This document shows positions 739 through 48,672 of a stretch of 48,672 nucleotides of DNA, in pieces. The stretch spans positions 1 to 48,672 of the forward strand of contig JADCJL010000007.1 of the NCBI GenBank assembly GCA_020247055.1, written 5' to 3'. Position numbers and translations under genes: made by a program. The notes under the pieces were generated by a model. That model did no database searches, had not been told where the DNA came from, and saw only the letters and a list, made by a program, of their open reading frames with translations. This stretch comes from Acidobacteriaceae bacterium (GTDB lineage Bacteria; Acidobacteriota; Terriglobia; Bryobacterales; Bryobacteraceae). Every line of letters begins with the position of its first letter. The stretch's first letter is position 1.

Positions 739-1065
739 AGAGAGAGTAATCCAACCGTTATTGGTGAGGGCCGGTTCTTTTGAGCGCGGAAAGGCGGCAC
801 CGTGAGTGGGCCAGCGTTTCGGGTGCGGAAGAACCAGCGTTAAGAATTATACATCTGTGTTTTCGCCTGATTGTGGTGGCTCGTGCTGGCCTGACCGGCG
901 CTGAGTGGGTTGGGTAGCCCAGGAGGGAACATGGGCGGACCCGGGACGAACGAAAGGGATGCGTTGCTACGGCGGAACTTTCAGGTCACGAATGGGAGAT
1001 GCCGGAAGCTGGCAGGCCACGCTGATAACCGGGTGACGGGCCACCCTTATACAATCAGAGGAGCT
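739..1065. other. Gene-free divergent intergenic region
   Basis: This 327-bp gap separates the divergent TonB receptor and the cytochrome/quinoprotein operon. It holds an AT-rich patch around 840-860 inside otherwise GC-rich sequence, with a perfect minus-strand TATAAT. An open frame runs in from 910 into the cytochrome gene, but its first 52 codons do not resemble a signal peptide or a protein domain. I see no RNA gene or operator repeat here. Confidence 0.6.
846..851 (-). promoter_or_regulatory. Candidate -10 box (TATAAT) for the left-edge TonB receptor
   Basis: Reading the minus strand, TATAAT is a perfect -10 hexamer about 108 nt upstream of the receptor ATG at 738. No convincing TTGACA-like -35 lies 16-18 nt upstream, so this is a suggestion from one hexamer and its AT-rich setting. 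Confidence 0.35.
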
Positions 1066-8000: not shown

Positions 8001-8778
8001 CGGCGCGGGCAACACGGCCAACGGCGGTGGGGCGAGCTCGTTTACGCTGCGGGACTGGAACCTGGAGCGGAGCGTATCGAACTCGGACGTGCCGCACCGG
8101 GCGGTGATCTACTACGCTTACGATCTGCCTTTCGGCAAGGGGCAGCGGTGGGCGACGAGCGGGGTTCTGAATGCGTTGGCGGGAGGCTGGAAGATTGCGG
8201 GCGTGACGACGTTCTCGTCGGGATTACCGTTGAGCGTGGCAGGAGGCGGCTTCGGGCGTCCGGACCTGATCAGCGATCCGGTGCTCCCGAAGGAGTACCG
8301 GGTGTTTGGCGACGGGCGGACAGCGACGCGTTTGCCGGACGGGTCGTCGGTGGTGGTGCCCAACCGCCGGTTGCTGGTGTTCAACCCGAACGCGTTCCGG
8401 AACCGGGTTGTTTCGACGGCGAATCCTTCGGTCCCGGGCGCGACGATTGTGCAGAACGACCTGTATTGGTACGGGACCGCGCCGCGGTTTCTGGACGATG
8501 TGCGGAGCTTCGGGATCAACAACTGGAATCTGACGGTGTCGAAGACGGTGTCGATGGGGGAGCGGCTGCGGGCGGAGATTCGGGCGGAGGCGGTAAATGC
8601 CTTCAACCGGACGGAGTTTGGCGCCGGCGGCATTGACCGGAACTTCGGAGCGGCGAACCTGAATCCGAACCAGGGCCCGCTGGGCGCGTCGACGAACGCC
8701 AATTTTGGCACGGCGGACATTACGGCGATCGGAAGAACGCCGCGGTATCTGCAGATGGTGCTGCGTCTGCAGTTTTAA
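5002..8778 (+). CDS. TonB-dependent receptor, Oar-like, full length
   Basis: Outer-membrane receptor of 1258 aa, the normal size for the acidobacterial Oar-like family. AAGGAG precedes the ATG by about 10 nt. The signal peptide is about 1-23 (ending APAQ). A carboxypeptidase-regulatory domain follows at about 27-105 (GTITDPSGAPVKGAKV). The plug is at about 120-250, with VLLDGAPNTGAAFNEI and ISFGTKSGTNQFHG. The barrel ends in the aromatic terminus LRLQF expected for outer-membrane insertion. It uses strongly G-ending codons, like its neighbours to the left. It is divergent from the membrane regulator, which is the obvious candidate controller. The substrate is unknown. Confidence 0.92.
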   Translation: MNRLVRNSLWLTAVALAPWVAPAQVITGTILGTITDPSGAPVKGAKVKIVNTGTNIVTQTSSNDAGEYVQPYLPTGTYDVTVEATGFKSYRSTGVTLTLDSKVRIDAALALGAVQETVEVRANALALQTDSTDLNATISTNIMASVPNIGRSPTYYMATIPGVVPRGNFEGTGNFATGDGARAQFSNFAVNGSRPISTEVLLDGAPNTGAAFNEIITVPNLDAIGDMKVITNAYSAEYGRASGGVISFGTKSGTNQFHGAIYDYWRNSALNANDFGRNSFGRTPAGTPVREKGVFNIHQFGANLSGPVRLPNYDGKNRTFFFFAYEGNRRVEDASAFLTVPTARERNGDFSQTVAQFRNPANGQLEVTPRLVFNPTPAGAAVTEVSAGQFRINRAPFLGNVIPPAMINPTGRALVNSYPLPNIPPLNIDGTVNYFDSNVIRTETDQFILKLDQQFNDRHRTFFRWTSDWTLNTPPDRFRGEGGNRAATQQSLTRQFIPTFTLGHTWTKSATSLFEFRANVNRLSLVNEPPQGVNTDLAALGFAPDMIRVLQNNPFPFVVPGGGFPEIGFRFFQLQRNFSTNSNFVANYTKIRGKWTHKAGGEYRPMLNNFNQPRVPGMIFRADENWTRECTGPGCPALPPNRVEGYVLADVMLGAMRGGDAGSQFAQNDPRGAFKSSYWGFYSQNDWKVTRSLTVNLGVRYDLQMPLTERFNRLSPFDPSARNFLGSPGAYLLAGRDGMSRFQMEPDYRQWQPRLGIAWRPLDKTVIRTGYGISFDQTTGVGSGLEGFGTDAFTAPAFSRIRPLNNLDILERPFNNSFNGGGTVLADNANNPLLYGRSVVAITRNQRTPYIQQWNFTVERELPSGINLQVSYVGTKGTRLTIQQLPINGVNAMDPQVLNSARSTWIQTGVNPLNQLIANPLFGRIPAFNAAVGGAQVSRLQTLLPYPALQNVTLFHQRFGNSNYHALQVNVRRAYRSGLEIGGNYTWSKSIDIGNHFSVNGAGNTANGGGASSFTLRDWNLERSVSNSDVPHRAVIYYAYDLPFGKGQRWATSGVLNALAGGWKIAGVTTFSSGLPLSVAGGGFGRPDLISDPVLPKEYRVFGDGRTATRLPDGSSVVVPNRRLLVFNPNAFRNRVVSTANPSVPGATIVQNDLYWYGTAPRFLDDVRSFGINNWNLTVSKTVSMGERLRAEIRAEAVNAFNRTEFGAGGIDRNFGAANLNPNQGPLGASTNANFGTADITAIGRTPRYLQMVLRLQF

Positions 8779-10201: not shown

Positions 10202-13200
10202 CTAAAAGTAGAACTTCAGGCCCAACTGGATGTTCCGTGGGTTGCGGGTGGCGGTCAGCGAACCGAAGCCGAAGCGTCCGCCCGTTCCGCCCACCGCGGC
10301 AGGGGTGTTGATCAATTGACCGGCCCGGCTAAAGACCATGCTCCGGTTGAAGTCCGAAAACTGCACGTTGTTCAAGGCGTTAAACATCTCCACGCGCAGT
10401 TGGAGATACTTGCTTTCGGTGAACTTGAGGTTTTTGAAGATGGAAGCATCCAGGTTCCAGAAGCCCGGCAGGCGGACGGGATAGTTGCCGTGCTCCCAGC
10501 CCGTCGAACCCTTCACGGTGGGCAGGGTGAACGCCGTCGGGTCCACCTGCAGGAACTGCGTTTTGGTGGTGCCCTGGGGATCCTTGTTGATGAACACGCG
10601 CGGGGCAATGTTCACGGAGCCCGTGTAGCGTTCATTCAGGTTGCCCAAGCCGTCGATAGAGAAGCTTACGTTTTCCGGGCGCCCGCTGCGGGCTTCGAAA
10701 ATGCCGGAGATCTGCCAATCGTTCAGGATCGTCCGCGTCACCGGACTACTGAAGCCGGAGCCGTTGTTGGCCAGCTTCGGCAGGTCGTAAACCCAGTTCA
10801 CCGCGAGCACGTGGGGCAGGTCGTAAGCGAGAGGCCCGTAGTTGGTGAGCCGGGCGTTGACCGGATGGACAAAGTTGCCGTCGCCGTCGACGAGGCCGAT
10901 GGTCCGGGACCAGGTGTAGGCCAGGCCGTAGGTCAATCCTTTCGAGAAGCGCTTGGTGGCGCTGATCTGCAAGGAGTGATACTTCGAGGGAGCACCGAAA
11001 CCCAGGACGTTGGCGTTCTCAAAGCCGGGGTAGGGGCGATAGAGGTTGACCGGCTTGGTTGTGCTGCCGTCGAATAACGGGTTGGGGTTGGTCGGGTCTT
11101 GGTTCTGCGGCAGCCAGGCCGAGCCCAGCGGCACCGCGTTCCAGTTCAGCCGGTAGATGTTGTACAGGCTGCGGCTTCCCACGTAGCCCACATCGAGCAG
11201 CACACCCGTCGGCAACTCCCGTTGAATCGAGAAATTCCAGTTGTAAGTGGTGGGAATATTGCCGTTGATGTCAAAGCCGTTGACCGAGGCGGGGGAGAAG
11301 ACACCCGCGCTGGCCGGCGGAATCGATTCCAACTGCCCGTAGAAGAACGTCGGCCGAATCGTGGAGGGCGGGTTCGGCAGCATGTCGAATACGGGATTGC
11401 CCTGGAAGCGATCGTAGAAGATCCCGCCGCCGGTCCGGATTACGGTTTTGGGGAGGATCTGATAGGCGAGGCCGATCCGGGGGGCGTAGTGGATGCCGCG
11501 GTCGTTGATCAGGCCGGCCGGATATCCGTTCTGCCCCGCCCGGCCCATGCCGTTTGCATACAGGGGACCGGTGAACGCTGCGCCCCCGGTGTTGACGATC
11601 GTGCCAATCAAGGCGGCCGGACCCACCTCCCCGTTCACCGGATTCACCGAAACCCGGCGTCCGTTCTGCAGCGCCGGCTGGCGGAGCCGAGCCGCCTGCG
11701 CCGTCTGGTAAAGCGCCGGATTGAAGGACGAAGTCTGCAGCGCCTGATCAAACTGGGGCTGGATCCAATAGAAACGCACGCCATAGTCCACGGTCAGTTT
11801 GTTGGTGACCCGCCAGGAGTCCTGGAGGAACCACTCGACGTTCCAGTAGCGATACTCGCCGTTCAGCACCGTGTTGGACTGCGCGAGGCGTTGGAAGGTG
11901 CCGGTGAGGGCGTTCGAGAAGGCCCAATTGGTATCGAGCGGATTGGAAGAGTCCCGGTCAAACCAGATGTCCCCGTTAATCGAGGTGAAGGCCGTTTGGT
12001 CTTTCTGGGAGTAATGCAGATAGATGCCGGCCTTCAACGTGTGGCGCCCGAGCACCTTGGTCAGGTTGTTCGTAAAGTCCCAGGTGTGATTGAAGTTGCG
12101 GAAGGGCGTGCCGGCGAAGTTCGAGAACGGAGCGTTCGGTACGCCACCGAAACGCCAGTTCTGCACCAGGGCCAGCTTGTCCGCTTCCGGGAAAGGCATG
12201 CGGTAGGTCAAGCCCAGGGGTTGGCGTTGGAAGGCGTTGTCGGTCGGGTCGATGTTCAGCACGTTCCGCGAGGAACCGAAGATGAATTCATTAGTCAGGG
12301 TCGGGCTCACCGTCGTCGTCAGGTTGGTGATGAAGCTCCAACCCGGGTTACCGAAGTTCATGGGTCCGAATGGAATGTTGTAGTCTGCATTCCATTGACC
12401 GTACGGCATGTTCTGCTCGCTCTTGGTCCGCAGGTAGCGGGCGTAAAGCCGCCATTTATCGCTGATGTTATAGTCGCCGCGGTACATCTCTTCCCGGCGT
12501 GGGAACGAGTGCGAAACCTGGGTCTGGTAGTTGAAGTCCGGATTGATGCCTGCCGCGTTGGGCTGCGGATAGAAATTCAGGATGCGCCGGCCATCCGCGC
12601 TGATCCGGTTCTGCGGAATGATGTTTCCAGGGAACTGGATATTATTGTTCAACGGGTCGCGTACGATCAGCGGGGAGCCGCCGCCTTCGCGGGACTGCGA
12701 GAAGTTGCCGGTCCGCTCGAGCGCGCTGGGCACGGTCACGTTCCGAAGCGAGTTCGCGATCAATTGATTCTGCCATTCCGTCCCGATGAAGAAGAAAAAT
12801 TTGTCCTTGTTCCGGTTGAAGAGTCCAGGAATGTAGACAGGACCTCCAATATTAAAGCCCGGGTAGTTACGCCGCGATAACGGGCGCTGACGGTTCTCCA
12901 TGTTGTTGCGCCACAGGTTGGCGTTGAGACTTTCGTGCTGGTAAAACCAATAGCCGGTGCCGTGGAAATCCCGTGTGCCGCTCTTGGTGACCACCTGTAT
13001 CTGCGCGCCGGAGGAGCGGCCGAACTCGGCCGGCTGGGCATTGGTGATCACCTTGAACTCCCCAATCTGGTCCATGTTCAAAGTCGCCAGTGCGCCGCCG
13101 TTGGAGCCGGTATCCACGTTCGTGACCCCGTCTACCGTCAGGTTGTTCTGGTTACCCCGGTTTCCGTTCGCTTGAATGCCGCCCAGGCCGCCCGTGTAAA

Positions 13201-13687
13201 CCACGCCGGGAATGACGCGCACTAGGTCCAGGAAGTTGTTCCGGTTCATGGTCAGGTCCAGGACCTGTTTGCCTTGCAACACACCGGAGCGGTCCGCACC
13301 CGTCGTCTGCACTTCGGCGGCGGCGGCCTCAACCGTGATTGTTTCGGTTAGCGCACCAACTTCCAACACAACGGGAATGTCCAGGCGGTCCGACGCGAAC
13401 AGTTTTACTTCGCGGCGCTCGAATTTCTTAAAACCCGTCACCTCGATCGCGACGGTGTAGGTTGATGGCTGCACCGCCTGGAATAGGTAGAAGCCCTCGT
13501 CATTGGTTTCCGTTTCCCGAATGTTGCCTTGTACGGTGTTGATGAGCCGTACTTTCGCCTTCGGCACAACGGCTTGCTGGTTGTCCCGCACCACTCCGGA
13601 AATCGAGCCGGAGATCTGCTGGGCAGGAAGAAGAGAGGAGAGTAAGAACAGGGCAATGACCGCTTGCCTCGCATTGCGGAGAATCAT
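10202..13687 (-). CDS. TonB-dependent receptor, Oar-like, full length
   Basis: Outer-membrane receptor of 1161 aa. The signal peptide is about 1-22 (LFLLSSLLPAQ). A carboxypeptidase-regulatory domain follows (about 26-105, GVVRDNQQAVVPKAKV), then the plug (LTVDGVTNVDTGSNGG, IQVVTKSGTRDFHGTG) and a barrel ending LGLKFYF. It has its own strong terminator. Compared with genes on both sides its codons are less extreme: G and C are almost balanced on the plus strand, and A- and T-ending codons are more common. That suggests a different recent history, such as acquisition, or a position at the skew switch. Substrate unknown. Confidence 0.92.
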   Translation of the reverse strand: MILRNARQAVIALFLLSSLLPAQQISGSISGVVRDNQQAVVPKAKVRLINTVQGNIRETETNDEGFYLFQAVQPSTYTVAIEVTGFKKFERREVKLFASDRLDIPVVLEVGALTETITVEAAAAEVQTTGADRSGVLQGKQVLDLTMNRNNFLDLVRVIPGVVYTGGLGGIQANGNRGNQNNLTVDGVTNVDTGSNGGALATLNMDQIGEFKVITNAQPAEFGRSSGAQIQVVTKSGTRDFHGTGYWFYQHESLNANLWRNNMENRQRPLSRRNYPGFNIGGPVYIPGLFNRNKDKFFFFIGTEWQNQLIANSLRNVTVPSALERTGNFSQSREGGGSPLIVRDPLNNNIQFPGNIIPQNRISADGRRILNFYPQPNAAGINPDFNYQTQVSHSFPRREEMYRGDYNISDKWRLYARYLRTKSEQNMPYGQWNADYNIPFGPMNFGNPGWSFITNLTTTVSPTLTNEFIFGSSRNVLNIDPTDNAFQRQPLGLTYRMPFPEADKLALVQNWRFGGVPNAPFSNFAGTPFRNFNHTWDFTNNLTKVLGRHTLKAGIYLHYSQKDQTAFTSINGDIWFDRDSSNPLDTNWAFSNALTGTFQRLAQSNTVLNGEYRYWNVEWFLQDSWRVTNKLTVDYGVRFYWIQPQFDQALQTSSFNPALYQTAQAARLRQPALQNGRRVSVNPVNGEVGPAALIGTIVNTGGAAFTGPLYANGMGRAGQNGYPAGLINDRGIHYAPRIGLAYQILPKTVIRTGGGIFYDRFQGNPVFDMLPNPPSTIRPTFFYGQLESIPPASAGVFSPASVNGFDINGNIPTTYNWNFSIQRELPTGVLLDVGYVGSRSLYNIYRLNWNAVPLGSAWLPQNQDPTNPNPLFDGSTTKPVNLYRPYPGFENANVLGFGAPSKYHSLQISATKRFSKGLTYGLAYTWSRTIGLVDGDGNFVHPVNARLTNYGPLAYDLPHVLAVNWVYDLPKLANNGSGFSSPVTRTILNDWQISGIFEARSGRPENVSFSIDGLGNLNERYTGSVNIAPRVFINKDPQGTTKTQFLQVDPTAFTLPTVKGSTGWEHGNYPVRLPGFWNLDASIFKNLKFTESKYLQLRVEMFNALNNVQFSDFNRSMVFSRAGQLINTPAAVGGTGGRFGFGSLTATRNPRNIQLGLKFYF

Positions 13688-28235: not shown

Positions 28236-30167
28236 GTGCTACGCCGCTCCCTCCTCCTTTGCGTCGCTCTGCCCCTGCTCCTGAGCCAGAAGAAACTCAG
28301 TGCGCCCGGCGAAGCGTATTTTCCCGCCAAAGTCATGCCCGCCCTCGAAAAAGCGGGCTGCCAGAACTGCCATGGCTCGAACGGCGTCGCCGCCGGCACC
28401 CGCTTCCGCCTCCCCGAAGAGGGCGCCAGCGCCGAAGAGCTCCAACAGTTTGGCAAGTCCCTCCACGTCCTCATCGACCGCGCCGATCTCACAAAATCCC
28501 TGCTCCTCAATAAACCCACCCGCCGCGTCCCCCACGGCGGCGGCCTCAAAATCACCCCCGGCTCGCCCGAAGAAGCCACCCTCCGCACCTGGATCGACTA
28601 CCTCGCCGCCAACACCAAACCCGACGACCGCTTCCTCCTCGGCCAGCGCAAGTTCGAAGCCCGCCCCGTCCTCCGGCGCCTCACCCACGCCCAGTACAAC
28701 AACACCGTCCGCGACCTCCTCGGCGACGATAGCCGCGTCGCCGACCAGTTCCCCGCCGAAGACTTCGTCGGCGGGTATCGCAACCAGTTCCAGTCCCAAT
28801 CCATCTCGCCCCTGCTCGCCGAAGCCTACAGCGCCGCCGCCGAAAAACTCGCCCGCTCCGCCTTCCGCGGCGGCGATACCCACGGCCTCATCCCCTGCAA
28901 AACGCGCGACGCCGCCTGCCGCCAGAAATTCCTTCGCACCTTCGGCGCCAAGGCCTTCCGCCGCCCTCTGCTCGAAACCGAACTCGCCCGCTACGAAAAA
29001 CTGTTCCTCACGCAGAAAGACTTCCTCGCCGGCGCCCAGTTAACCCTCGAGGCCATGCTCCAATCCCCGGCCTTCCTCATGCGCACGGAAAACGGCGCCG
29101 AACCCGCCTGGCGCCCCTACGAAACCGCCAGCCGCCTCTCCTACGCCCTGCTCAACACCATGCCCGACGCCGAACTCCTCCGCGCCGCGGCCCAGGGCGA
29201 ACTCAACACCCGCCAGGCCGTCGAACAGCAGGCCCGCCGCCTCCTCGCCGACCCCCGCGCCAAAATCACCCTCGATGAGTTCGTCGCCGAATGGCTTCGT
29301 TTCGACCAACTCCTCGACGCCGTCAAAGAGCGCGCCCAGTTCCCCATGTACTCGGCCGAACTCACCGTCGCCATGACCGAAGAGACCCGCCGCATGGTCG
29401 CCGACCTCGTCTGGCGCGACCAGGACTTCATGCAGCTGTTCGCCGCCGAACACAGCTTTGTCAATACCGCCCTCGCCCAGCTCTACAAGCTCCCCGCCCC
29501 CGCTAAAGAGTACGACCGCGTCCCCCTCCCCCCCGAAACCGGCCGCGGCGGCATCCTCGGCCACGCCATGTTCCTCGCCGCCACCTCCAAGCCCGCCGAT
29601 ACCAGCGCCACCCAGCGCGGCCTCTTCGTTCGCGAACACTTCCTCTGCCAGGAGGTGCCCCAGCCCCCGCCCGGCGTCAACGCCAACCTGCCCAACCTCG
29701 ACAAGGGCAAGCCCATGACCAACCGCGAGCGCCTGGCCATGCATCTGAACAACGAAAGCTGCGCCAGCTGCCACACCCTTGTCGACCCCATCGGCCTCGC
29801 CCTCGAAAAATACGATGCCATCGGCCAGTTCCGCAACAAGCAAAAACTCACCTTCCGCCCCGCCCGCCGCGAAGATGGCGACGTCGTCAACGTCGAACTC
29901 GACATCGACACCAACGGCTACGTCGCCGGCATTCCCAACTCCCGCTTCACCACCCCCCGCGAGCTTGGTAAAATTCTATCGGCTGCCCCACAATGCCAGC
30001 AGTGCGTGGCCAAGCAGCTGTTCCGCTACTATACGGGCCGTCATGAAAATGCGCGCGACGCCGTCGTCATCGATCGGGCCTTTGCCGATTTCCGCAGCTC
30101 CGGGTACCACTTCCGGGAGCTGATGGTCAGCTTATTGAAGTGGAGCGTCTTCCCCCCGGAGTCTTAA
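28236..30167 (+). CDS. DUF1592/1588/1585 protein with c-type heme motifs
   Basis: Large exported protein of 643 aa from a family abundant in Planctomycetes and Solibacter-like Acidobacteria; function unproven, thought to be redox or polymer-related. GTG start. A hydrophobic leader (about 1-17) is followed by CQNCH at 42-46, a planctomycete-type cytochrome segment. [19 protein letters not shown] (about 147-165) marks DUF1587 and [19 protein letters not shown] marks DUF1595. DUF1592 lies in the middle. DUF1588 carries CASCH at 509-513 ([20 protein letters not shown]), and DUF1585 closes the protein. Two heme motifs in all. It is 4 bp upstream of the DUF1552 gene, the pairing seen in these phyla. 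Confidence 0.87.
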
Positions 30168-30171
30168 ACCG

Positions 30172-31484
<1,313 letters not shown>

Positions 31485-31488
<4 letters not shown>

Positions 31489-32795
31489 ACCGGCGCCGCT
31501 TCCTCGGCGGCCTCACCGCCGCCGCCCTCGGCGCCCAACCCAAACGCCCCAACATTCTCCTCATCCTCGCCGACGACCTCGGCTACGAATGCCTGAGCTG
31601 CTACGGCAGCCAAACCTACAAAACGCCGCACCTCGACCGCCTCGCCGCCGAAGGCATGCTCTTCCGCTACGCCTTCGCGCAGCCCCTCTGCACCCCCACC
31701 CGGATGCAGCTCATGACCGGAAAGTACAACTTCCGCAACTGGCAGGCCTTCGGCATCATGGACCCGCAAGAGCGCACCTTCGGCCACCTGTTCCGCGAAC
31801 ACGGCTACCGCACCGCCATCGCCGGCAAGTGGCAGTTCTGGAGCTACAACCCGCCCGCCTTCGAACCCGAGTGGCGCGGCAAAGGCCAGCGCATCGAAGA
31901 CGCGGGCTTCGACGAATACGCCGTCTGGCACGCCGGCCACACCGAAGACAAAGGCTCCCGCTACGGCAACCCCACCATCTACTCAAACGGCGCCCTCCAG
32001 AAAAACCTCACCGGCCAGTATGGCGAAGACCTCTTTGCCGACTTCCTCCTGCAGTTCGTCAAAAAGCCCGACCCCAGGCCCTGGTTCGCCTACTGGCCCC
32101 TCGCCCTCACCCACGATCCCTTCGTCCCCACCCCCGACACCCCGGAGTTCCAGGGCCCCAACCGTCTTAAGCCCGACAACCGCTTCTTCAAAGACATGGT
32201 CGAGTACATGGACAATGTCGTCGGCCGTGTCGTCTCCCAACTGCCCCCGGACACGCTGATCCTCTTCTTCAGCGACAACGGCACCCATCAAAGCATCACC
32301 AGCCAACTCAACGGCCAGCCCTTCCCCGGCGGCAAAGGCCTCACCACCGAAGCCGGCACCCGCGTCCCCCTCCTCGTCCGCTGGAAGGGCGTCACCCCGC
32401 CCGGCAAAACCAGCGACGACCTCATCGACTCCTGCGACTTCCTGCCCACCCTCTGCGCCGCCGCCGGCATCCCCACCCGCGGCCTGGGCCCCCTCGACGG
32501 CGTGAGCTTCCTGCCCCAACTCCAGGGCCGCCCCGGCCGGCCCCGCCCCTGGATCTACTCCTGGTACGACCCCCGTCCCGGCGCCGATAAAGAAAACTGG
32601 ACCCGCACCCAACGCTGCGTCTTCGATCACCACTGGAAGCTCTACGACGACGGCCGCCTCTACCACTGGGCCCGCGATCCCCGCGAAACCACCCCGGTGG
32701 AGAACCCCGCCGTCCGCGCCCGCCTCCAGGCCGTCCTCACCCGCTACGCCCGCCAGGGCGGCAGCCGCGAAATCCAGGTCAAACCAAGAGCCTGA
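31485..32795 (+). CDS. Sulfatase with twin-arginine-type leader
   Basis: Exported sulfatase-like hydrolase of 436 aa. The leader [17 protein letters not shown] is twin-arginine-like. [13 protein letters not shown] at about 23-35 supplies the first metal aspartates. The formylglycine motif C-x-P-x-R is CTPTR at 69-73 (C69 to be converted), followed by MQLMTGK, with Lys where the family usually has Arg. [20 protein letters not shown] at about 265-285 is the second conserved region. It overlaps the DUF1552 gene by 4 nt (ATGA), so the three genes are coupled. No formylglycine-generating enzyme is in the window. The likely substrate is a sulfated polysaccharide or glycan; not proven. Confidence 0.88.
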
Positions 32796-39231: not shown

Positions 39232-39582
39232 TCAGGATAGCGCCGCAAGCAGCATCCGGCGCGTTAAAGGCTTGGTCAAATATCCCGTAAAGCCCGCCGC
39301 CAGCCCCCGCTGCTCGTCGCCCTCCATCGCCGAAGCCGTCACGGCATAAATGGCCACCCCCGCCAGCGCCGGCGCCGCCCGCAGCCGCCGCAGCGTCTCG
39401 TACCCATCGAGCCCCGGCATCTGGATATCCAGCAGAATCAGCTCCGGCGGCCGCGCCGTCGCCATCTCGACCGCCGTTAACCCGTCGCGTGCCTCTTCCA
39501 CCGTCCAACCCTCGTGCGCCAGCATCGTCCGCAGCAGCTCCCGGTTGCTCGCGCTGTCATCCGCAATCAGTACCCGCCGCAT
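39232..39582 (-). CDS. Single-domain response regulator
   Basis: Receiver-only protein of 116 aa. The acidic pocket is D8/D9 with phosphoryl acceptor D52 (LLDIQMPG); T82 and K104 (YLTKPL) complete the set. There is no output domain, so it acts by protein-protein contact or relays phosphate, like CheY or Spo0F. ATG immediately follows the TAG of the hybrid kinase, with the ribosome-binding site AGGAG lying just before the kinase stop. Hence the two are coupled and very likely a cognate pair in a phosphorelay. Confidence 0.9.
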   Translation of the reverse strand: MRRVLIADDSASNRELLRTMLAHEGWTVEEARDGLTAVEMATARPPELILLDIQMPGLDGYETLRRLRAAPALAGVAIYAVTASAMEGDEQRGLAAGFTGYLTKPLTRRMLLAALS

Positions 39583-41367
39583 CTACTCCTCCCCCCGGCC
39601 CAACGCCCGCCGCAGCGTCCGCACCAGCAATTCCCGCGCCACCGGCTTGGTCAGCGAAGCAAACGCTCCCCGCTCAAGCGCCGACTCGTCCGCCGCCACC
39701 GACGTCACCAACACCGGAATATCCCGCGTCTCTTCGAGCTTCTTCAAACCCGCCAGCGCGTCCCAACCGCTCCCCTGCGGCAGATAAAGGTCCAGCACAA
39801 TTACGTCCGGATGTAGGTCGAGCGCCTTCACGAGACTCTCCCGCACCGTCGCCGCCGCCACCAGCGCCATGCCCTCGGCCTCGAGATACTCCCGCAGCAG
39901 CGCCAGCGCCGAAGGGTCGTCCTCCAGCGCCAGCACCAGCGGCTGGCTCCGCGGTGCCGTCAACGCCGCCAGCGGCAGCGTAAAGACGAAACGGCTGCCG
40001 CCCCCGGCGGCCTCCTCCATCCAAATCCGCCCCCCCTGCCGCTCCACCAGCCGCCGCGCGATCGCCAATCCCAAGCCCGTCCCCGCCGACCCCGGACCCT
40101 GATAAAACGCCTCGAAAATCCGCTCCCGCAACTCCGGCGGCACCCCCACCCCGGTATCCACCACCCCAATCGTCCCAAACCCCCCGGCCGACCTGCCCTC
40201 CACCGCCACCCGCCCCCCGGCGTTTGTAAACTTCACCGCATTCGTCAGCAGATTCAACAGCACCTGCTTCGACCGCAACCGGTCCCCCGCCAGCCGCAAG
40301 TCCCGCTCCAGTTGCACGTCCAGCGCTATCTCCTTGGCCTCGGCCTGCGGCCGCACCATCGCCACGGCCTCTTCGATCCACTCCCGCGCGGTGAACTCCT
40401 CCACCCGCAGCTCCATCCGTCCGGCCTCAATCTTACTCAGGTCCAGAATGTCGTTGATCAACGTGAGCAGGTGCTGCGAATCGCGCTGGATATGCGCGGC
40501 AAACCGTTTCTGCTTGTCGTTCAGAGGCCCTTCGAGCTCATCCGCCAGCAGCTCGGCGAATCCGATGATCGTATGCAGCGGCGACCGCAGCTCATGACTC
40601 ATGCTCGCGAGAAACTCGCTCTTGGCCTGGCTCGCCTGCTCGGCCCGCAGCCGCGCCTCTTCAATCGCCTCCTGAAACCGCCGCTGCGCGGAGACGTCCT
40701 GCGCCACCAGCAGCCGCGCCGGCCGGCCCAGATACGGCAGGTCATGCGATCGGACCTCGTAGTCGGCCTCCCACAACGGCGCGAGCCCCGCCACCCCCAG
40801 GGCCAGAAACTCCTCCCGGCTCACCCGGAACGCTTGCAGCGCCTCCCGGTTCACGGCCAGCAGCGCCCCGGTCTCCGGGTCCTCCACCCACGACGCCAGC
40901 GGACACTCTTCAAACAACAGCCGGGCCTGCGCCTCGCTCTCCTGCATCGCCGCCAGCAGGTTCATCCGCTCGGAGACATCCCGCACCACCGCCGCCGTAT
41001 GCACCGCCTCGCCCACCTGCAGCGGGCTCAGCATGATCTCCACCGGGAACTCTCGGCCATCCTTTCGTACCGCCTGAAAGTAAGATCCGCTGCCCATCGA
41101 CCGTGTTACCGGCGCCGCACTATATCCCAATCGCTTCTGTTCGTGACCGGCCCGCACCGCCGCCGGCGTCAGTATCTCAATCCGCTGCCCGATCAGCTCC
41201 TGCCGCGTGTAACCAAACATCCGCTCACAGCTCCGGTTCACTAAGACGATCACCCCGCGAGCGTCCACTTCAATTACGGCATCCGGCGCGGCCTCAAGCA
41301 GCGCTGCTTCTTTACTGTTAGTCTCACGATCAGCAGGATTCAACAATTGCAATGATCTCCAGTTCAA
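39583..41367 (-). CDS. PAS-containing hybrid histidine kinase
   Basis: Cytoplasmic sensor kinase of 594 aa with no transmembrane segment. Two PAS domains occupy about 20-140 and 145-235. The HisKA phosphate-accepting His is H258 (SMSHELRSP). The HATPase domain (about 300-455) has TNAVKF, VVDTGVGVP and GLGLAIARR. A C-terminal receiver carries D526 (VLDLYLPQG). A hybrid kinase with a separate receiver protein suggests a phosphorelay. PAS domains often sense redox or small ligands; no heme or FAD residue can be assigned by eye. The start is a TTG; no good ATG precedes the first PAS domain. It is 29 bp from the divergent sigma-54 activator. Confidence 0.9.
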   Translation of the reverse strand: MNWRSLQLLNPADRETNSKEAALLEAAPDAVIEVDARGVIVLVNRSCERMFGYTRQELIGQRIEILTPAAVRAGHEQKRLGYSAAPVTRSMGSGSYFQAVRKDGREFPVEIMLSPLQVGEAVHTAAVVRDVSERMNLLAAMQESEAQARLLFEECPLASWVEDPETGALLAVNREALQAFRVSREEFLALGVAGLAPLWEADYEVRSHDLPYLGRPARLLVAQDVSAQRRFQEAIEEARLRAEQASQAKSEFLASMSHELRSPLHTIIGFAELLADELEGPLNDKQKRFAAHIQRDSQHLLTLINDILDLSKIEAGRMELRVEEFTAREWIEEAVAMVRPQAEAKEIALDVQLERDLRLAGDRLRSKQVLLNLLTNAVKFTNAGGRVAVEGRSAGGFGTIGVVDTGVGVPPELRERIFEAFYQGPGSAGTGLGLAIARRLVERQGGRIWMEEAAGGGSRFVFTLPLAALTAPRSQPLVLALEDDPSALALLREYLEAEGMALVAAATVRESLVKALDLHPDVIVLDLYLPQGSGWDALAGLKKLEETRDIPVLVTSVAADESALERGAFASLTKPVARELLVRTLRRALGRGEE

Positions 41368-41396
41368 GTCCCCAGCAAACTAAGGGCCAGCGTACA

Positions 41397-42778
<1,382 letters not shown>

Positions 42779-42782
<4 letters not shown>

Positions 42783-44641
42783 CGGCCCAACCGCAGCCCA
42801 ATCGTAATCTGTTGCACCCCAAACGCCTCATTGGCGTAGAACGCCTGCCCCATCGACACCTGCCGCCACTCCCCCAATAGCTGCACCTGCTTCCGCACCG
42901 GCACAAGCAGCCGCGCCAGCGGCTGATAGTACCGCGTCGGCCGCGAACCCGCCGAACGGAACAGGCTCCCGCCCACCGTCACCGACCCCCGGTTCTTCGG
43001 CCAGTTCCACGTCGCCGCCAGCGCCGCCGTATGGGCGTTATCCCGGTACAGACTCCGCAGCGGCGCATACCGTTCCGGATCCAAAAACACGAGATCGTTC
43101 CATAGCGTCGATCGCGCATAGTCCGCCGTCACCGCCACCGTCTGCCGCGTCCACTGCACCGACGCCCCCGCCTGCTGCGCCGCAAACCGCAGGTTAACCC
43201 CCGGCGTCGGGTTCCCGTTCGCCGTCCGGTGGTAGTGCCCGCTCACCTGCCAGCCGTCGGCCATCCGGTAGCGCGCCCGCACCCGCACCCGCTCGTAATT
43301 CTGCAGACTCGTCCGGAAGTACGTCCGGTCCCCGCGGCCCACCTCCGCGTTCGCGTTCACCGTCAGCCGCGCCGCCGGCCGCAGCACAAACCCCGCTAAC
43401 CCCACGTGTCGGCGCAGCAGCCCCGCCTCCTGCGCCGGCCCCGTCGACAGCGTCCCCCGCCGCACCCGCGCATCGCCCCACAGGTACCGGTGCCCCCCCT
43501 GCAGCGTCAAAAACTTCGCGACGTCCACCCACGCCTGCACCTGCTGCTCGCTCTCGTTCCACACGAGACGATCCCCCTCACTCCGCCCCGGCAGCGCTCT
43601 CTGGTCCAGCGTCGTCAACCCCGCCAGCGACGCCGCGTTATGCATCCGCGTCGTCTGCCACGATTCGAGAATCCGCACCCGGCTCCACGGCCGCACCTCC
43701 ACGCTCCCCGCCCCTGACGTCCGCGGCTGGTTGGCGTAGCCCGTCACGAGCGACTGCTGCCCGCTCACGAACCGCAGCGTCTCGAGCCACAGCAGCGTGC
43801 CCTGCGCGTTCTCGCTGAAGCGTACGTCGCTGTTCGGCTGCGAGTAGAAAAACTGCCCCGTGAAATCCACCCAGCGCCACGGCGACACCGTCACCTCGGC
43901 CGACGAGTACACGTTCTGCCCGGTTACGGCATAGGCCTGCGTCGCGCGGTCGAGCGCCAGGCGCCGGCCGAAGTACGGCAGCAGCCGGTTGCCCGTATTG
44001 CGCTCCTCAATGCGCAGCGCCGTGTCGTCGTGAAAACGACCGCCGCCCTGTTCGAGCGTGAAGCGCCACCGTTCGGCATCGTAGTGCACCCCGCCCCGAA
44101 ACTGCAGATAGCCGTAGTCGATCGCTGACGCCGCCGGGTAGCTGTTCTCGTCCACCACAATCGGGCTCACCCCGAACCCGTTGCCCGACTGCCGGCCCAC
44201 ACTCAAGAACGGCTGCAGCCGCTTGCCCGGCCGCAGGTCGAGGTCCGCGTTCCACAGCCGCTGCCGCGTATCGAACGACCGCTGGCTAAAGGTATTCAAC
44301 GGATTGGCGAACGAGGGCAGGGCATTGAAATAGGCCATGTTGCGATAGCCGAACGTGAACCGGTACAGCCTCGCTTTGTCCATCGTCAGGTGCAGGGCGT
44401 TCATCGGGTCGCCCCACCCGGAGCCCGTCACCCGCAGCGCGTCCAGCCCCCGGCTCCCGGCCGGCGTCCAGGCCCCGGCAAACTGCAGAAGCCGCGGCCC
44501 CTCGGCCAGATTGTCCACGCTCCGGTAGCTCTTCCAGTCGCCCCGTGTCGAAGGCAGCACCCGGTAGCCCACGTCGGTGGTCACCTCCGGCGCCTGCCCC
44601 CAAACCACCATCGGAATCGCCAGCCACAACGCCCGTCTCAT
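42779..44641 (-). CDS. MtrB/PioB-like outer-membrane barrel of the electron conduit
   Basis: Outer-membrane beta-barrel of 620 aa, in the size range of MtrB/PioB porins. The start at 44641 is chosen because it overlaps the MtrA-like stop by 4 nt (ATGA) and opens with a signal peptide (MRRALWLAIPMVVWGQ). The body has alternating amphipathic strands with many aromatic residues (FTFGYRNMAYFNALPSFANP). The C-terminus ends ITIGLRLGR. By position directly after a decaheme MtrA-like gene it should sheathe that cytochrome through the outer membrane. It contains no cysteine at all, so the CXXC near the N-terminus of Shewanella MtrB is absent. Assignment rests on context and barrel pattern more than on sequence identity. 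Confidence 0.8.
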
Positions 44642-45534
44642 CGCAGAAAGTCCCGGTTGACGTGCGAGCCGTGGATCTTCGTATGGCACGACGTGCAGTT
44701 GCGATAGAGTGGCAGCCGCAGGTCGTGCGTCCCCGGCGCTACCGCACCCAGCGTGCCCGTCCGGTTGCCCGGCGCCGGCAGGTTCGCGTGGCACTCGAGA
44801 CACAGGTTCATCACCTCCGCCCGGTTCAGCATCCGCGGGTTTGCCGACCCGTGCGGCTCGTGGCAGCTCCCGCAGCCCTCCAGCCGCATCGGCGCGTGTT
44901 CAAACGCAAACGGCCCCCGCTTGTCGGCGTGACAGTTCAGGCACCCGGGCTCATTGTTTCGGGTCCGCGCCGTCCCCCGCAGCCCCGCCCGCTCGAGCGA
45001 CCCGTGCGGGTTGTGGCAGTCGACGCACTCGACCGTACCTCGCGTAATGCGGTGCGCGTGCGGCCGCAGAAACTGCGCCACCATGTCACTATGGCAGCCG
45101 GCGCAGGTGCTGGCCGGCGCGGGCTTCTCCTGATGCACCCCGTGGCAGCTCCCGCACCCCACCTGCCCCGCGCTATGCGACCCGTGCACCCGCCCGGCGT
45201 GCGTCGCCTGGTTCTTGTGGCAACCCAGGCACGACGCATCCGCCTCCTTCGGCGCCGCCTTCGAATGGTTCAGAATGAACTTCGCCTCGGCCGCCTCGCC
45301 GTGCTTCTGCCCCGGCCCGTGGCAAGCCTCGCACGAATAATCTTTCCAGCCGCGCCCGGCCTCCCGCTCCAAGCTGCCGTGCCGCGTCTTGGCGTACCCC
45401 TTGCCCTGCTCTTCATGACAAGCCACGCACGCCTCCGTGCCGGCGTAGCCCGCCCCCGCCCGGTCTCTCTGAGGAGGCGGCGCCGCGCCGACGCCAAAGG
45501 ACAGCGCGCCCAGCAGCAGCAAACGCTTCACCAT
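44638..45534 (-). CDS. MtrA/DmsE-like periplasmic decaheme cytochrome c
   Basis: Decaheme cytochrome of 298 aa with a signal peptide (MVKRLLLLGALSFGVGAA). Ten C-x-x-C-H motifs are visible: CVACH at 36, then CEACH, CLGCH, CGSCH, CAGCH, CVDCH, CLNCH, CGSCH, CLECH and CTSCH at 280. Size and heme count match MtrA/DmsE, about 330 aa with ten hemes. In Shewanella MtrA threads into the MtrB barrel and conducts electrons through it. It starts 6 nt after the OmcA/MtrC-like stop (GAGG upstream) and overlaps the barrel gene by 4 nt. It is the middle piece of the conduit. Confidence 0.92.
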   Translation of the reverse strand: MVKRLLLLGALSFGVGAAPPPQRDRAGAGYAGTEACVACHEEQGKGYAKTRHGSLEREAGRGWKDYSCEACHGPGQKHGEAAEAKFILNHSKAAPKEADASCLGCHKNQATHAGRVHGSHSAGQVGCGSCHGVHQEKPAPASTCAGCHSDMVAQFLRPHAHRITRGTVECVDCHNPHGSLERAGLRGTARTRNNEPGCLNCHADKRGPFAFEHAPMRLEGCGSCHEPHGSANPRMLNRAEVMNLCLECHANLPAPGNRTGTLGAVAPGTHDLRLPLYRNCTSCHTKIHGSHVNRDFLR

Positions 45535-45540
45535 CCCGCC

Positions 45541-47562
45541 TCACCGCGCATGGGACTTCGCCACCGAAAACGCCGCGTTCGGCCCGTGGCACACGTTGCA
45601 GCTCTCGCCAAGCGGCGAAGTGGTCAGCTGCACGTGCGCCGCCGCGTCCTTTGAACTGTGGCACGACAGGCACGCCGCCCCCGCCGGACCCGGATTCGGC
45701 AACCACCCCCGCGGGTCCACCACATTCAGCAGATTCGGCGCCAGCGGCAGCCGCTCCGTGTTGTTCACATGACACATCGCGCAGTTGCGCGCATCGGCCG
45801 GCAGCGCCACTTTGCTGTAGTCGTTGGCCGTCCCGCCGAAGCCGTAGATCACATAGGGCCGGCCCTGCGTCGCGCCCGTGTGCAGCCGGTGAATCATCGT
45901 CGAAAAGTTCACGCTCTCGGCCGGCATCTGCGCCGGGGTCCGCCGCGCCGCGTCCGTCAGGTTCGGGTTGTGGCAATCCACGCAGTGCTCAATTTGATTC
46001 CGATTCCGCCCGTGCGCCTCGAGGTCGGCATGGCAGGCGTTGCACTTGGCGAGCGACACAATCGTCCGCCGTGGCTCGGCCGCCTTGCCCTCCACGCTGA
46101 AGTACTTCGTCACGTTCTGCAGCGTGTCCCGCACCGTCACCGGCTGCAGCCCCGGCCCCTCGAACGTCACGTTCCGGTAGCCTTCTACGGCAATCGAGTA
46201 GCTCCCCGTCGCCCCGGCCGGAATCGCCCGCGTGAACCGGTGCGTAGCCGTCCCGCCGGGGCTCGGCGGATCTGTCCGCCCGCTTTCGGACCAGTAGGCG
46301 GCATAGTCCGCCGTCGGTCCCGCGAGCACGAACGAAAGCGAGTTCAGCTCCCCCGGCGTCAGCAGCTTCCCTTCGCCATCCCGCAGCCGGTAGCTCACCG
46401 CCGGCTGCTGCCCGGCGTTCGTATCTCGGATCTCCAGAATCTCTATGGCAATCCCCTTCAGGTTCCGCGACTTCTCCGGCCGCGTGTGCGCGCCCTCAAT
46501 CGACAGATCCCACTCCCGTTCCCCCGCCGGCCGGTGGCACTGCGCGCAGCGCGAATCGTCCACCTGCACCGGATGCCCCTTGCCCGCCGCGAAATCAATA
46601 TCGTCGTGGCAAGATCCGCAGGCCGCCTGCGTCGGCCGATACATCGCCCGCGCCTGCGCCCCCGCGTTCGGCCCCTCCTGCACATGGCACGCCGCGCAGT
46701 TGCGGTTGTTGGCCGGAAAGCCCACGTGCGAATAATCCGTCTCCCGCTGCGCGTTCCCGATCAGCGAATACTTCCCGCCCGCCTGCACGCTCGGCAGCTC
46801 CCGGCCCATGTGGATCTTGTGCGTCATCACGGTCATGTCCACCGTGTTGCCCGTGTCCGGGTCCACCGTCTGCGGCGTGTGGCAGAGCACACACATCGCC
46901 ATGCCCCTTCGCGCGCCCCCGTGCGCGGCAATCTCGGTGTGGCAACCGTTACAGCTCTCCGTCCGGATCACATCCCGCACCGTCGTCACCGCGCCCCCCG
47001 CCGGCACAAAGTGAAACACGGTGCTCGCATAGCTTACCCCCAGTTCAAACTCGTTCAGGTTGCGGCTCCCGTAGACGCCAATGGTATGCGTCGCCGTCCG
47101 GTCAAATCCGCCCGGCGCCTTCGTGCGGAACGTGTAGCGGTATTCGCCATCAGCCAGCTTCGCAAAGCTCCCGCCGGAATCCGCCGCGGCCTGCGTGGCC
47201 GATACCCCCGTCAACGGGCTCCGCTGCACCCGCGTCGTGTACGCCGTGTAGTGCTCGCCCTCGGCCGGAATCGTCGCCGCCACCAGGCTCAGGTTCACCA
47301 CCCCCGGCGTCACGCGCCCCTCCCGGTCGAGCGGCACCCCCATCGGATCGGTCACCCGTAGCGTCGCCGTGATCGTTCCGTCGGCCGCAATCTCGGCCCC
47401 CAATACCCGCAGCTCCAGCCCCGGCCGCACAAAGTTCAGCGTTCGCTCGCTCGCGTAAAAAGCCTTCTGCTCCGGCGTAAATCCAAAGCGCCGCACCCCG
47501 CCCGCCAGGCAGCCCGCCGCCACCAGCCCCCCTACCATCCAGACCCTGGCCCTGCGGTTCAT
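45541..47562 (-). CDS. OmcA/MtrC-like decaheme outer-membrane lipoprotein
   Basis: Decaheme cytochrome of 673 aa. ATG at 47562 is preferred, with GGAGG upstream, over the GTG at 47568. The lipobox VAAGC puts the lipid on C18, so a surface lipoprotein is expected. Ten C-x-x-C-H motifs fall in two groups of five: C204 to C339 and C507 to C655. A beta-rich domain precedes each, at about 30-195 and 345-500. This is the beta-pentaheme-beta-pentaheme layout of Shewanella MtrC/OmcA, the terminal reductases for metals and electrodes. The gene overlaps or abuts the upstream NapC-like gene and is followed by the MtrA-like gene after 6 nt. Confidence 0.93.
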   Translation of the reverse strand: MNRRARVWMVGGLVAAGCLAGGVRRFGFTPEQKAFYASERTLNFVRPGLELRVLGAEIAADGTITATLRVTDPMGVPLDREGRVTPGVVNLSLVAATIPAEGEHYTAYTTRVQRSPLTGVSATQAAADSGGSFAKLADGEYRYTFRTKAPGGFDRTATHTIGVYGSRNLNEFELGVSYASTVFHFVPAGGAVTTVRDVIRTESCNGCHTEIAAHGGARRGMAMCVLCHTPQTVDPDTGNTVDMTVMTHKIHMGRELPSVQAGGKYSLIGNAQRETDYSHVGFPANNRNCAACHVQEGPNAGAQARAMYRPTQAACGSCHDDIDFAAGKGHPVQVDDSRCAQCHRPAGEREWDLSIEGAHTRPEKSRNLKGIAIEILEIRDTNAGQQPAVSYRLRDGEGKLLTPGELNSLSFVLAGPTADYAAYWSESGRTDPPSPGGTATHRFTRAIPAGATGSYSIAVEGYRNVTFEGPGLQPVTVRDTLQNVTKYFSVEGKAAEPRRTIVSLAKCNACHADLEAHGRNRNQIEHCVDCHNPNLTDAARRTPAQMPAESVNFSTMIHRLHTGATQGRPYVIYGFGGTANDYSKVALPADARNCAMCHVNNTERLPLAPNLLNVVDPRGWLPNPGPAGAACLSCHSSKDAAAHVQLTTSPLGESCNVCHGPNAAFSVAKSHAR

Positions 47563-47564
47563 CC

Positions 47565-48668
47565 TCACCCTCCCAACTCCCGCAAGGCCGCCAGGTTCCT
47601 CTCTTCCACCCCCAACACCTTGTGACAGCTCTCACAATCCTGCGTCATCGTCTTGCCCGACTTCGTCTTCAACTCTTCGTTATGGCAGCGGAAACAGCCC
47701 GGCGAATCCGTGTGCCCGTTGTGCTGTGGGTAGCTGCCCCAGGTCAACTTCATCTCCGGATACACGTTCTGCTGATACAAACCGAACAGCCGCTCTCCCG
47801 CCCGCTCAAGTTCGTTCCGGTGCAGCACCATCGCCTCCGGCGCGTTCTGCTTATAGTAAGCCAGCAGCGCCGCCGGAATCTGCTCCGCCGCCGCCTCCCG
47901 GCTCGGGTACGCCTTTCCCAACACCGCCAGCGCCGCCCGGCGGAACCGCGGCACTCTCTGCGGCAACGCCCCGGCCGCCATCTCGCGGTCCACCGCCCGC
48001 TCCGCCGTCTCAAACGCATGCGCCGGCCGGTTGTGGCAGTCCAGGCAATCCATCTCCCGTTCAAAAGCCCCCGTCCCCGCGCCCCCATACTCATCGCCGT
48101 GCTCCACCCGCACCGCCACCATCGTCTTCCGCTCCCGGTCCGCTGCCCGGTAGACGATTCCTCTCCCCTTACCGAGGTGCGCCCCGTGAATCCGCCCCAC
48201 CTTCATCACCAAAGCCGTCTCCCGCCGCTCGCCCGCGTCATCGAACCGGCTCTGCCGCCAGAGCCGGTTGCCGTAATCATGCTCCCGGTTGTGGCAGTTC
48301 TCGCACGTCTCGGCCGACGTCTTCAGCGCATGCGGCGGCGACGGCACCGGCCGGCTGTACCGATTTGTCAACAGCAGAACCAACTGCCGCGTCCCGTTCC
48401 ATTTCGCCGCAATCTTCGCCCCCGCGCCCTCCCCCACGTGGCAATCCACGCACCGCACCTGCGCGTGCGCTCCCCCCACCAGATGCGCCGCATACTCCGG
48501 GCCCATCACCTGATGGCATGCCGTCCCGCAAAAGTTCGTCGACTCCATGTACCGCACCGTCCGGTAGCTCAGCGCCCCGCCCACCGCCACGTTGAACCCC
48601 GTCGCCACCGCCAGAAAAACCACCAGCCGCTGCACCCGCCGGTTCCCCCACTCCACCCGCTCCGGCAA
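47565..48668 (-). CDS. NapC/CymA-like membrane-anchored multiheme cytochrome
   Basis: Quinol-oxidising cytochrome candidate of at least 367 aa, with six heme-attachment motifs. A single N-terminal transmembrane helix (about 14-35) anchors it with the rest in the periplasm. Heme motifs: C-x-x-x-C-H (CGTACHQVM) at 47-52, then CVDCH, CENCH, CLDCH, CFRCH and CESCH. The odd first motif followed by a methionine resembles NrfH/NapC proteins, where a Met ligates the first heme. The first visible start is a TTG at 48668, four bases from the window edge; the frame is open beyond, so the true start may lie outside. It is the first visible gene of the conduit operon and feeds the downstream decahemes. 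Confidence 0.85.
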   Translation of the reverse strand: MPERVEWGNRRVQRLVVFLAVATGFNVAVGGALSYRTVRYMESTNFCGTACHQVMGPEYAAHLVGGAHAQVRCVDCHVGEGAGAKIAAKWNGTRQLVLLLTNRYSRPVPSPPHALKTSAETCENCHNREHDYGNRLWRQSRFDDAGERRETALVMKVGRIHGAHLGKGRGIVYRAADRERKTMVAVRVEHGDEYGGAGTGAFEREMDCLDCHNRPAHAFETAERAVDREMAAGALPQRVPRFRRAALAVLGKAYPSREAAAEQIPAALLAYYKQNAPEAMVLHRNELERAGERLFGLYQQNVYPEMKLTWGSYPQHNGHTDSPGCFRCHNEELKTKSGKTMTQDCESCHKVLGVEERNLAALRELGG

Positions 48669-48672
48669 ATGC

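Follow-up and report, generated by a model that had tools for sequence, protein, structure and literature searches.

Does the right end of an acidobacterial contig encode, in a single transcription unit, a route for electrons between the quinol pool and the outside of the cell, and in which direction would they run? The window, by which we mean the whole stretch analysed here (48,672 nucleotides (nt), JADCJL010000007.1), is the entire contig C326 of the draft genome GCA_020247055.1 of an Acidobacteriaceae bacterium (6.56 Mb in 358 contigs). It ends in four minus-strand genes, which the initial annotation had read as a complete CymA-MtrC-MtrA-MtrB-type conduit. In our analysis they belong to a predicted five-gene operon, and we consider it rather probable that this operon, probably switched by sigma-54, encodes an outward electron path from menaquinol to the exterior. 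The four genes in the window are, in order of transcription:

47565 to 48671, minus strand: 3′ part of an imcH-type gene for a predicted hexaheme inner-membrane quinol dehydrogenase (architecture of orthologues; NrfH structure 2j7a_C).
45541 to 47568, minus strand: gene for a decaheme cytochrome of the mtrC/omcA family, GTG start (TIGR03507; MtrF, OmcA and MtrC structures by sequence).
44638 to 45534, minus strand: gene for a predicted periplasmic decaheme cytochrome of the mtrA/dmsE family (TIGR03508; 6r2q_A).
42779 to 44641, minus strand: gene for a putative outer-membrane beta-barrel of 620 amino acids in the place of mtrB, ATG start (weak matches to PF11854 and TIGR03509; periodicity).

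All four frames, the first of them open at the contig end, were recovered as originally described, together with 26 heme motifs (five CX2CH and one CX3CH in the imcH-type gene, ten in mtrC, ten in mtrA and none in the barrel gene). The close packing was also confirmed, since the junctions read as a 4-nt GTGA overlap (imcH/mtrC), a 6-nt gap (mtrC/mtrA) and a 4-nt ATGA overlap (mtrA/barrel), and the C-A-B order is kept, with mtrC, mtrA and the barrel gene consecutive. The DNA pattern for CX2CH, TGYN6TGYCAY, occurs 32 times in the whole window against 1.72 expected, a count reached by none of 100 shuffles, and 25 of the 32 matches fall on the minus strand inside this 5.9-kb gene set.

The conduit is not complete within the window, as the contig end cuts imcH and the first gene of the operon lies on another contig of the same genome, C291. 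The end of C291 carries a monoheme cytochrome c gene (ATG at C291:47692) and then the start of imcH (ATG at C291:48014), beginning with an N-terminal sequence like that of ImcH in the related loci L035 to L038; it shares a 343-nt overlap with the window end (98% identity) and runs collinear with relative G016. The 2% mismatch in this overlap may have caused the assembly break. A small secreted monoheme cytochrome c precedes imcH also in the relatives whose upstream sequence was read (L035/L075, L036, L037, L044, L077, L078 and L079), with a gap that measures 6 to 29 nt in six of them and is 7 nt in the genome of the window, and the protein matches Pfam Cytochrom_C. With the monoheme gene and the imcH start on C291 standing in the order of the relatives, the full operon as read across the two contigs is monoheme-imcH-mtrC-mtrA-barrel, with 27 heme motifs. 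The quinol-side cytochrome is thus part of the same operon, as proposed, but does not head it.

What kind of quinol dehydrogenase is it? The window's product is short by about 84 residues, its 5′ end having been removed by the contig end, while full-length orthologues (L035 to L038, 452 to 454 amino acids) have three N-terminal hydrophobic helices, a CX3CH motif (CGTACH) and five CX2CH motifs; the invariant residues of the six heme motifs are common to 23 aligned ImcH-type rows. The published architecture of ImcH comprises three helices, an atypical CX3CH next to them and five to nine CX2CH, while CymA has four hemes and a single short helix and was found in Proteobacteria only, and the same text lists 19 ImcH homologues in Acidobacteria (PMC6295460). 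Judged by architecture, then, the first gene of the window is ImcH-type, likened to Geobacter ImcH through the published description. The label NapC/CymA-like stands as far as the broad NapC/NirT kind is concerned, because the window part passes PF03264, the NapC/NirT N-terminal domain (28.8 bits, gathering cut-off 24.1). CymA itself is ruled out by the six hemes, the three helices and the score of the 368-residue window part against TIGR02161, the model of CymA/NapC-NirT proper (12.3 bits, cut-off 310.6). The NrfH model gave 55 bits with this part against a cut-off of 134, and NrfH is the nearest solved structure by family profile (2j7a_C, E 8.3e-8). Geobacter is not among the best 80 named loci kept from at least 581 ImcH-type relatives, and the nearest cultured iron-reducer genus among the matches listed is Geothrix (L142, 36%).

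The two decaheme proteins score above curated cut-offs. The second protein reaches 464 bits against TIGR03507 (OmcA/MtrC; cut-off 209.3) over profile positions 2 to 672 of 672, has ten CX2CH motifs and matches the solved MtrF, OmcA and MtrC by sequence. The third, likewise with ten CX2CH, scores 220.8 bits against TIGR03508 (DmsE/MtrA; cut-off 192.2), so that its description as MtrA-like was borne out; it also matches chain A of 6r2q at E 4.9e-35. In that entry, which we take to be the MtrCAB complex, the file gives chain A another name, and chain C is the OmcA/MtrC protein.

How widely, and in what company, does this arrangement occur? TIGR03507 was exceeded in 47 of the 101 genomes searched, and MtrC itself is therefore ordinary among these relatives. 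Forty loci fetched from them, picked from MtrC-bearing contigs and not at random, included six with the five-gene order, one each with imcH-C-A-B, C-imcH-A-B and C-A-B-imcH, and ten with C-A-B followed by a tetraheme cytochrome gene. The best 80 named loci gave five cases (L075 to L079), two of them contigs already counted. The monoheme protein was matched in 77 of 200 family genomes; a further 20 loci were taken from its best-ranked part, leaving out those already fetched, and 14 of them have the monoheme gene within 300 nt of imcH or mtrCAB, five have it alone and one has it 3.9 kb from the cluster. At least 14 genomes, all from one family (genus codes g1, g13, g81 and g97), have the five-gene order, counting the window, whose order spans two contigs, G015 (L038), in which the monoheme gene is cut by the contig end, and G233 and G001, in which imcH and mtrC, respectively, are split in frame. 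Such in-frame splits, seen in imcH of L079/L210 and in mtrC of L212, all in draft genomes, are either real or due to sequencing error. Other orders of the same components also occur, namely imcH-monoheme-C-A-B-tetraheme, C-A-B-tetraheme-monoheme-imcH and C-A-B-tetraheme-imcH (L213, L218, L219 and L220 with the monoheme gene, and L115, L120 and L138). The window's near relatives bear Bryobacteraceae names, and the nearest named genome among the matches listed is L075, a metagenome-assembled genome (MAG) titled with Lake Pavin, a lake described as permanently stratified (PMC11773610) and called ferruginous in titles of references cited there.

The phylogenies point to joint inheritance of the two halves of the operon. 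For the quick ImcH tree (90 rows) the duplicates L075, L076 and L089, the frame-split L079 and matches below 450 bits were dropped; for the MtrC+MtrA tree (35 rows) the same duplicates and the loci without all three genes above threshold were dropped. Placing imcH at the head of mtrCAB (10 rows) requires 2 changes on the ImcH tree against 9.6 with shuffled labels. Nine five-gene rows form a clade with support 95, and a clade of 12 at 96 also takes in the long-branched L049, L039 and L074; according to a warning of the tree tool, the joining of L049 and L039 may be false. The imcH genes that follow a tetraheme gene (L115, L120, L138) fall elsewhere. In the MtrC+MtrA tree the five-gene rows make one clade of 10 with support 99, apart from the tetraheme-bearing clusters. 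With own clades in both trees, the quinol-side and the outer-membrane parts have therefore been inherited together. Because an imcH-type gene lies near a different MtrA-barrel pair in 23 of the 90 ImcH rows, elsewhere in Acidobacteriota, coupling of imcH with decaheme-barrel pairs in this phylum seems to have been repeated. As a separate observation, in many Acidobacteriaceae loci (within L103 to L153) an imcH-type gene stands, mostly at 0.4 to 1.6 kb, near an MtrA-family gene with a barrel that is mostly larger and gives weak scores with our barrel profile; this is a second imcH/decaheme-porin coupling.

Downstream of the operon lie three genes of signal transduction:

41352 to 42782, plus strand: sigma-54-dependent response regulator with receiver, AAA+ (GAFTGA at residue 240) and Fis-type helix-turn-helix domains (PF00158, PF00072, PF02954).
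39583 to 41367, minus strand: PAS hybrid histidine kinase, the regulator's probable partner, encoded divergently from it (present in 5 of 12 loci searched).
39232 to 39582, minus strand: single-domain response regulator (present in the same five loci).

The regulator gene is convergent with the barrel gene, their stops overlapping, and a related regulator stands beside the operon in eight other genomes (L035 to L038, L044, L077 (the same as L209), L079 (the same as L210) and L207); it was not found in the fetched stretches of L049, L073, L078 (the same as L226), L211, L212 and L225, that of L212 ending at the barrel. The PAS hybrid kinase and the single-domain regulator occur together in L035 to L038 and L044. 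A first scan for sigma-54 elements upstream of imcH returned nothing, because the operon starts one gene earlier. In 12 of 12 operons, the region before the monoheme gene has a -24/-12-like element, its GG/GC core intact, at -28 to -38. The thirteenth, L225, has it at -75 from the likelier start or at -27 from an earlier ATG. The search covered 16 listed loci, 15 with an upstream stretch; L225 was read separately, and the contig of G015 (L038) ends before the site. The background is low (2.2% of shuffles; 10 of 226 other long open reading frame starts), the element is absent from the three clusters with an internal monoheme gene (0 of 3), and no sigma-70 promoter was found upstream. Sigma-54 is encoded in the own genome. 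The operon is thus probably switched on by sigma-54 from a predicted promoter, and the adjacent regulator is likely to control it, perhaps as part of a two-component system.

On the reading that we prefer, the ImcH-type protein would oxidise menaquinol in the inner membrane and the monoheme cytochrome c would carry the electrons over the periplasm. MtrA, sheathed by the barrel, would take them through the outer membrane, and MtrC, presumably at the cell surface, would pass them to an extracellular acceptor such as iron or manganese oxides or humics. The genome holds two genes of the MqnA/MqnD family (PF02621), which we take to mark the futalosine route to menaquinone. CcmF was found there; ResB-type cytochrome maturation gave no match. 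Two heme-copper oxidase genes are present as well, because of which the organism probably also respires oxygen. The view of this group as usually regarded as aerobic understates the record, which includes Fe(III) reduction by Paludibaculum fermentans of the Bryobacterales (PMC8407742) and published MtrCAB clusters of that order (PMC8805035). A broader proposition, which we offer tentatively and with slightly less than even confidence, is that Bryobacteraceae have evolved a self-contained cassette of a Geobacter-type ImcH, a dedicated monoheme carrier and a conduit of the MtrCAB type, MtrC being mostly non-lipidated and the sheath protein too diverged to be caught by standard MtrB models, and that this sigma-54-switched, co-inherited cassette is a third quinol-to-surface route besides CymA-MtrCAB and ImcH-Pcc.

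The main rival keeps the same proteins and reverses the flow: electrons from extracellular Fe(II), an electrode or a partner cell would pass through MtrC and MtrA to the monoheme cytochrome, the ImcH-type protein and the quinone, as proposed for MtoAB-MtoD-CymA. The gene content lends this some weight: mtoABD-cymA likewise combines a decaheme-porin pair with a short cytochrome c and a membrane cytochrome of the NapC/NrfH type, and Acidobacteriia have been reported to contain PioA/MtoA homologues (27 hits; PMC10654088); the two oxidase genes could serve as electron sink, and the genome has a second MtrA-barrel pair without MtrC. However, ImcH homologues have so far been implicated in quinol oxidation only, according to the text of the survey (PMC6295460), and MtrC is present here, while the iron oxidisers Gallionella and Sideroxydans are described with MtrAB homologues without MtrC (PMC8805035). 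With a Bryobacterales isolate, P. fermentans, known to reduce Fe(III) (PMC8407742), we regard inward flow as unlikely.

Does the conduit cross the outer membrane at all? Here are gathered the results that speak against the outward path. The window barrel stays below both MtrB models (PF11854, MtrB_PioB, 20.8 bits against a cut-off of 23; TIGR03509, 19.1 against 240.05), the barrel-family profile finds no MtrB in the PDB, and hhalign of the family with a true MtrB gives a probability of 1.2%. No lipobox was found in MtrC of L036, L037, L038, L044, L073, L077, L078 and L079. Ten of the 40 loci have C-A-B and the tetraheme gene without adjacent imcH, so that family members can do without imcH beside MtrCAB; L049, which has imcH-C-A-B but lacks the monoheme gene, is placed outside the MtrC+MtrA clade. 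Finally, the loci with the promoter site are related, so that 13 of 13 are not independent cases.

Some of these points fit the alternative that there is no trans-outer-membrane wire, the 620-residue protein being no MtrB-type barrel and the cytochromes serving periplasmic redox balance; the sub-threshold barrel scores and the lack of a lipobox in most MtrC relatives speak for it. Shewanella MtrC is a lipidated surface protein with a lipobox. A lipobox-like AAGC is present in the window's MtrC and the near-identical L035/L075, and overall a lipobox occurs in 10 of 52 MtrC rows, duplicates included, so that, of the earlier label of an MtrC/OmcA-like decaheme lipoprotein, the family membership holds, and lipidation as a family trait is not borne out. 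As the operon's relatives besides L035/L075 have none, it may be MtrA and the barrel, in place of a lipid anchor, that keep MtrC at the surface. Against a purely periplasmic role stand the MtrA and MtrC scores above curated cut-offs and the position of the barrel gene, directly after mtrA in 27 of 28 loci with mtrC and a strong mtrA among the 40 fetched, the other, L053, being cut by the contig end. The family also has PF11854 matches at E below 1 in 8 of 29 members (best 1.2e-7) and a residue alternation that may be of the barrel kind, as in true MtrB. We regard this alternative as improbable.

The periodicity was measured as the two-residue alternation of hydrophobicity. The 29-row barrel profile reached z 4.0 (0 of 500 shuffles), with our own MtrC alignment also at 2.4 and our ImcH and MtrA alignments at 0.5 and 1.6; the window barrel sequence alone gave z 2.1 (6 of 500 shuffles), the true MtrB 4.5 and the MtrC of the same replicon -0.7. 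Counting strands more crudely on the barrel sequence by itself gave no excess over shuffles. In NCBIfam, 3 of the 29 barrel rows match TIGR03509 (best 1.3e-5) and 6 the GSU2204 family (best 2e-4), and the positive control, the MtrB of a Photobacterium replicon, scored 551 bits to TIGR03509 in the same library. This control comes from L175 (NZ_CP119424.1), where an mtrCAB cluster lies on a 2.1-Mb replicon and is unannotated in the plasmid table. A search through intermediates (10 barrels, 8 of them outside the 29-row alignment) against Pfam gave one weak PF11854 match below cut-off (L143, 17.7 bits); a profile of the 29 rows with these intermediates scored 8.8 bits with the true MtrB (E 2.5e-5 in a one-sequence database), which is suggestive only. 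The protein is thus probably a barrel that occupies the position of MtrB, and its weak matches below cut-off make it a possible MtrB homologue; the failure to match MtrB/PioB models that the initial annotation named as a refutation is neither averted nor complete.

That the imcH-type gene is a chance neighbour, with MtrCAB fed by other inner-membrane cytochromes, we consider very improbable: other family members do have MtrCAB without adjacent imcH, and 44 of the 90 ImcH rows show neither mtrCAB nor an MtrA-barrel pair in the fetched stretch, but the 4-nt overlap, the same order in 14 genomes, the own clades in both trees and the embedding of imcH in relatives as C-I-A-B (L074) and C-A-B-I (L039) argue against it.

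How does the operon compare with known systems? Baker et al. (2022) described MtrCAB in their Group 5, five Acidobacteriia that belong to Bryobacterales or are unclassified, all with a tetraheme cytochrome after mtrB and, in the text, no inner-membrane quinone oxidoreductase nearby, whereas in nearly all other MtrCAB groups the cluster of one member or more contains a CymA homologue (PMC8805035). Our operon shares with Group 5 the bacterial order, the mtrC-mtrA-mtrB arrangement and the MtrC and MtrA families. It differs in having imcH and the monoheme gene at its head; the tetraheme gene was not found beside it or beside other five-gene operons, and its MtrC+MtrA clade is apart from the tetraheme-bearing loci, which presumably correspond to Group 5. 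With the Shewanella system it shares the set of predicted roles (quinol dehydrogenase, periplasmic decaheme, barrel, surface decaheme). There, CymA carries four hemes, has a single short helix (PMC6295460) and is not encoded beside mtrCAB (PMC8805035), whereas here the protein is ImcH-type, hexaheme, with three helices and in the same operon, the barrel is diverged and the MtrC lipobox is not conserved. Quinol-side genes within mtrCAB clusters were already known, judging from the texts on other Proteobacteria, Rhodoferax ferrireducens among them (PMC6295460, PMC8805035); the protein in those clusters is of the CymA or MtrH/NetBCD type, in contrast to ImcH here.

With Geobacter the operon has the ImcH-type quinol dehydrogenase in common. 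The Geobacter conduits consist of OmbB/OmaB/OmcB-type and Ext proteins. In its text, the 2018 survey reported no mtrAB found beside imcH (PMC6295460). The mtoABD-cymA cluster of Sideroxydans resembles our operon in its decaheme-porin pair, short cytochrome c and NapC/NrfH-type membrane cytochrome, and differs in having no MtrC, CymA instead of ImcH and a proposed inward flow (PMC10654088). Group-2 porin-cytochrome clusters in MAGs from cave and groundwater (2026) join a decaheme to a porin, six of eight with ImcH- or NapC/NirT-like cytochromes; Gammaproteobacteria or Acidobacteriota account for 21 of all 36 MAGs carrying such complexes, and the text section does not state the phylum, MtrC, monoheme gene or gene order of the Group-2 clusters (PMC13264449). 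No description of an imcH-mtrCAB operon in Acidobacteriota was found in the text passages of the open-licence literature that the search covered. The parts and the general idea are known, then; monoheme-imcH-mtrCAB as a distinct, co-inherited and probably sigma-54-controlled type is undescribed in that literature.

If the outward reading is true, an abundant soil phylum would be linked to mineral or humic respiration through a defined, testable gene set. The operon adds inner-membrane and periplasmic partners unseen in the 2022 survey of acidobacterial MtrCAB, and a one-operon cassette with its own carrier would be a convenient minimal unit for heterologous electron-transfer tests.

Several further observations concern the genome, its relatives and the rest of the window. 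The second MtrA-family decaheme gene of the own genome (242 bits; G000:C261:2416-5174, L169) stands with a distant barrel, no MtrC being seen beside it, and the pair resembles MtoAB/PioAB. Upstream of the monoheme gene in L077 and L079, inspection by eye showed divergent [NiFe]-hydrogenase-like small-subunit genes, in L077 also a large-subunit gene, hinting at H2 as electron donor in these two. In the window, a cytochrome c gene overlaps a gene for a pyrroloquinoline quinone (PQQ)-dependent dehydrogenase at 910 to 3581 (plus strand). At 28236 to 32795 (plus strand) a PSD/PSCyt-type cytochrome (DUF1587/1592/1588/1585/1595), a DUF1552 protein and a sulfatase follow in series, an arrangement reminiscent of planctomycetes. 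A very large outer-membrane barrel protein with a carboxypeptidase-regulatory start (Pfam) is encoded at 5002 to 8778 (plus strand), and a second very large barrel protein, its carboxypeptidase-regulatory start assigned by likeness of the start only, at 10202 to 13687 (minus strand).

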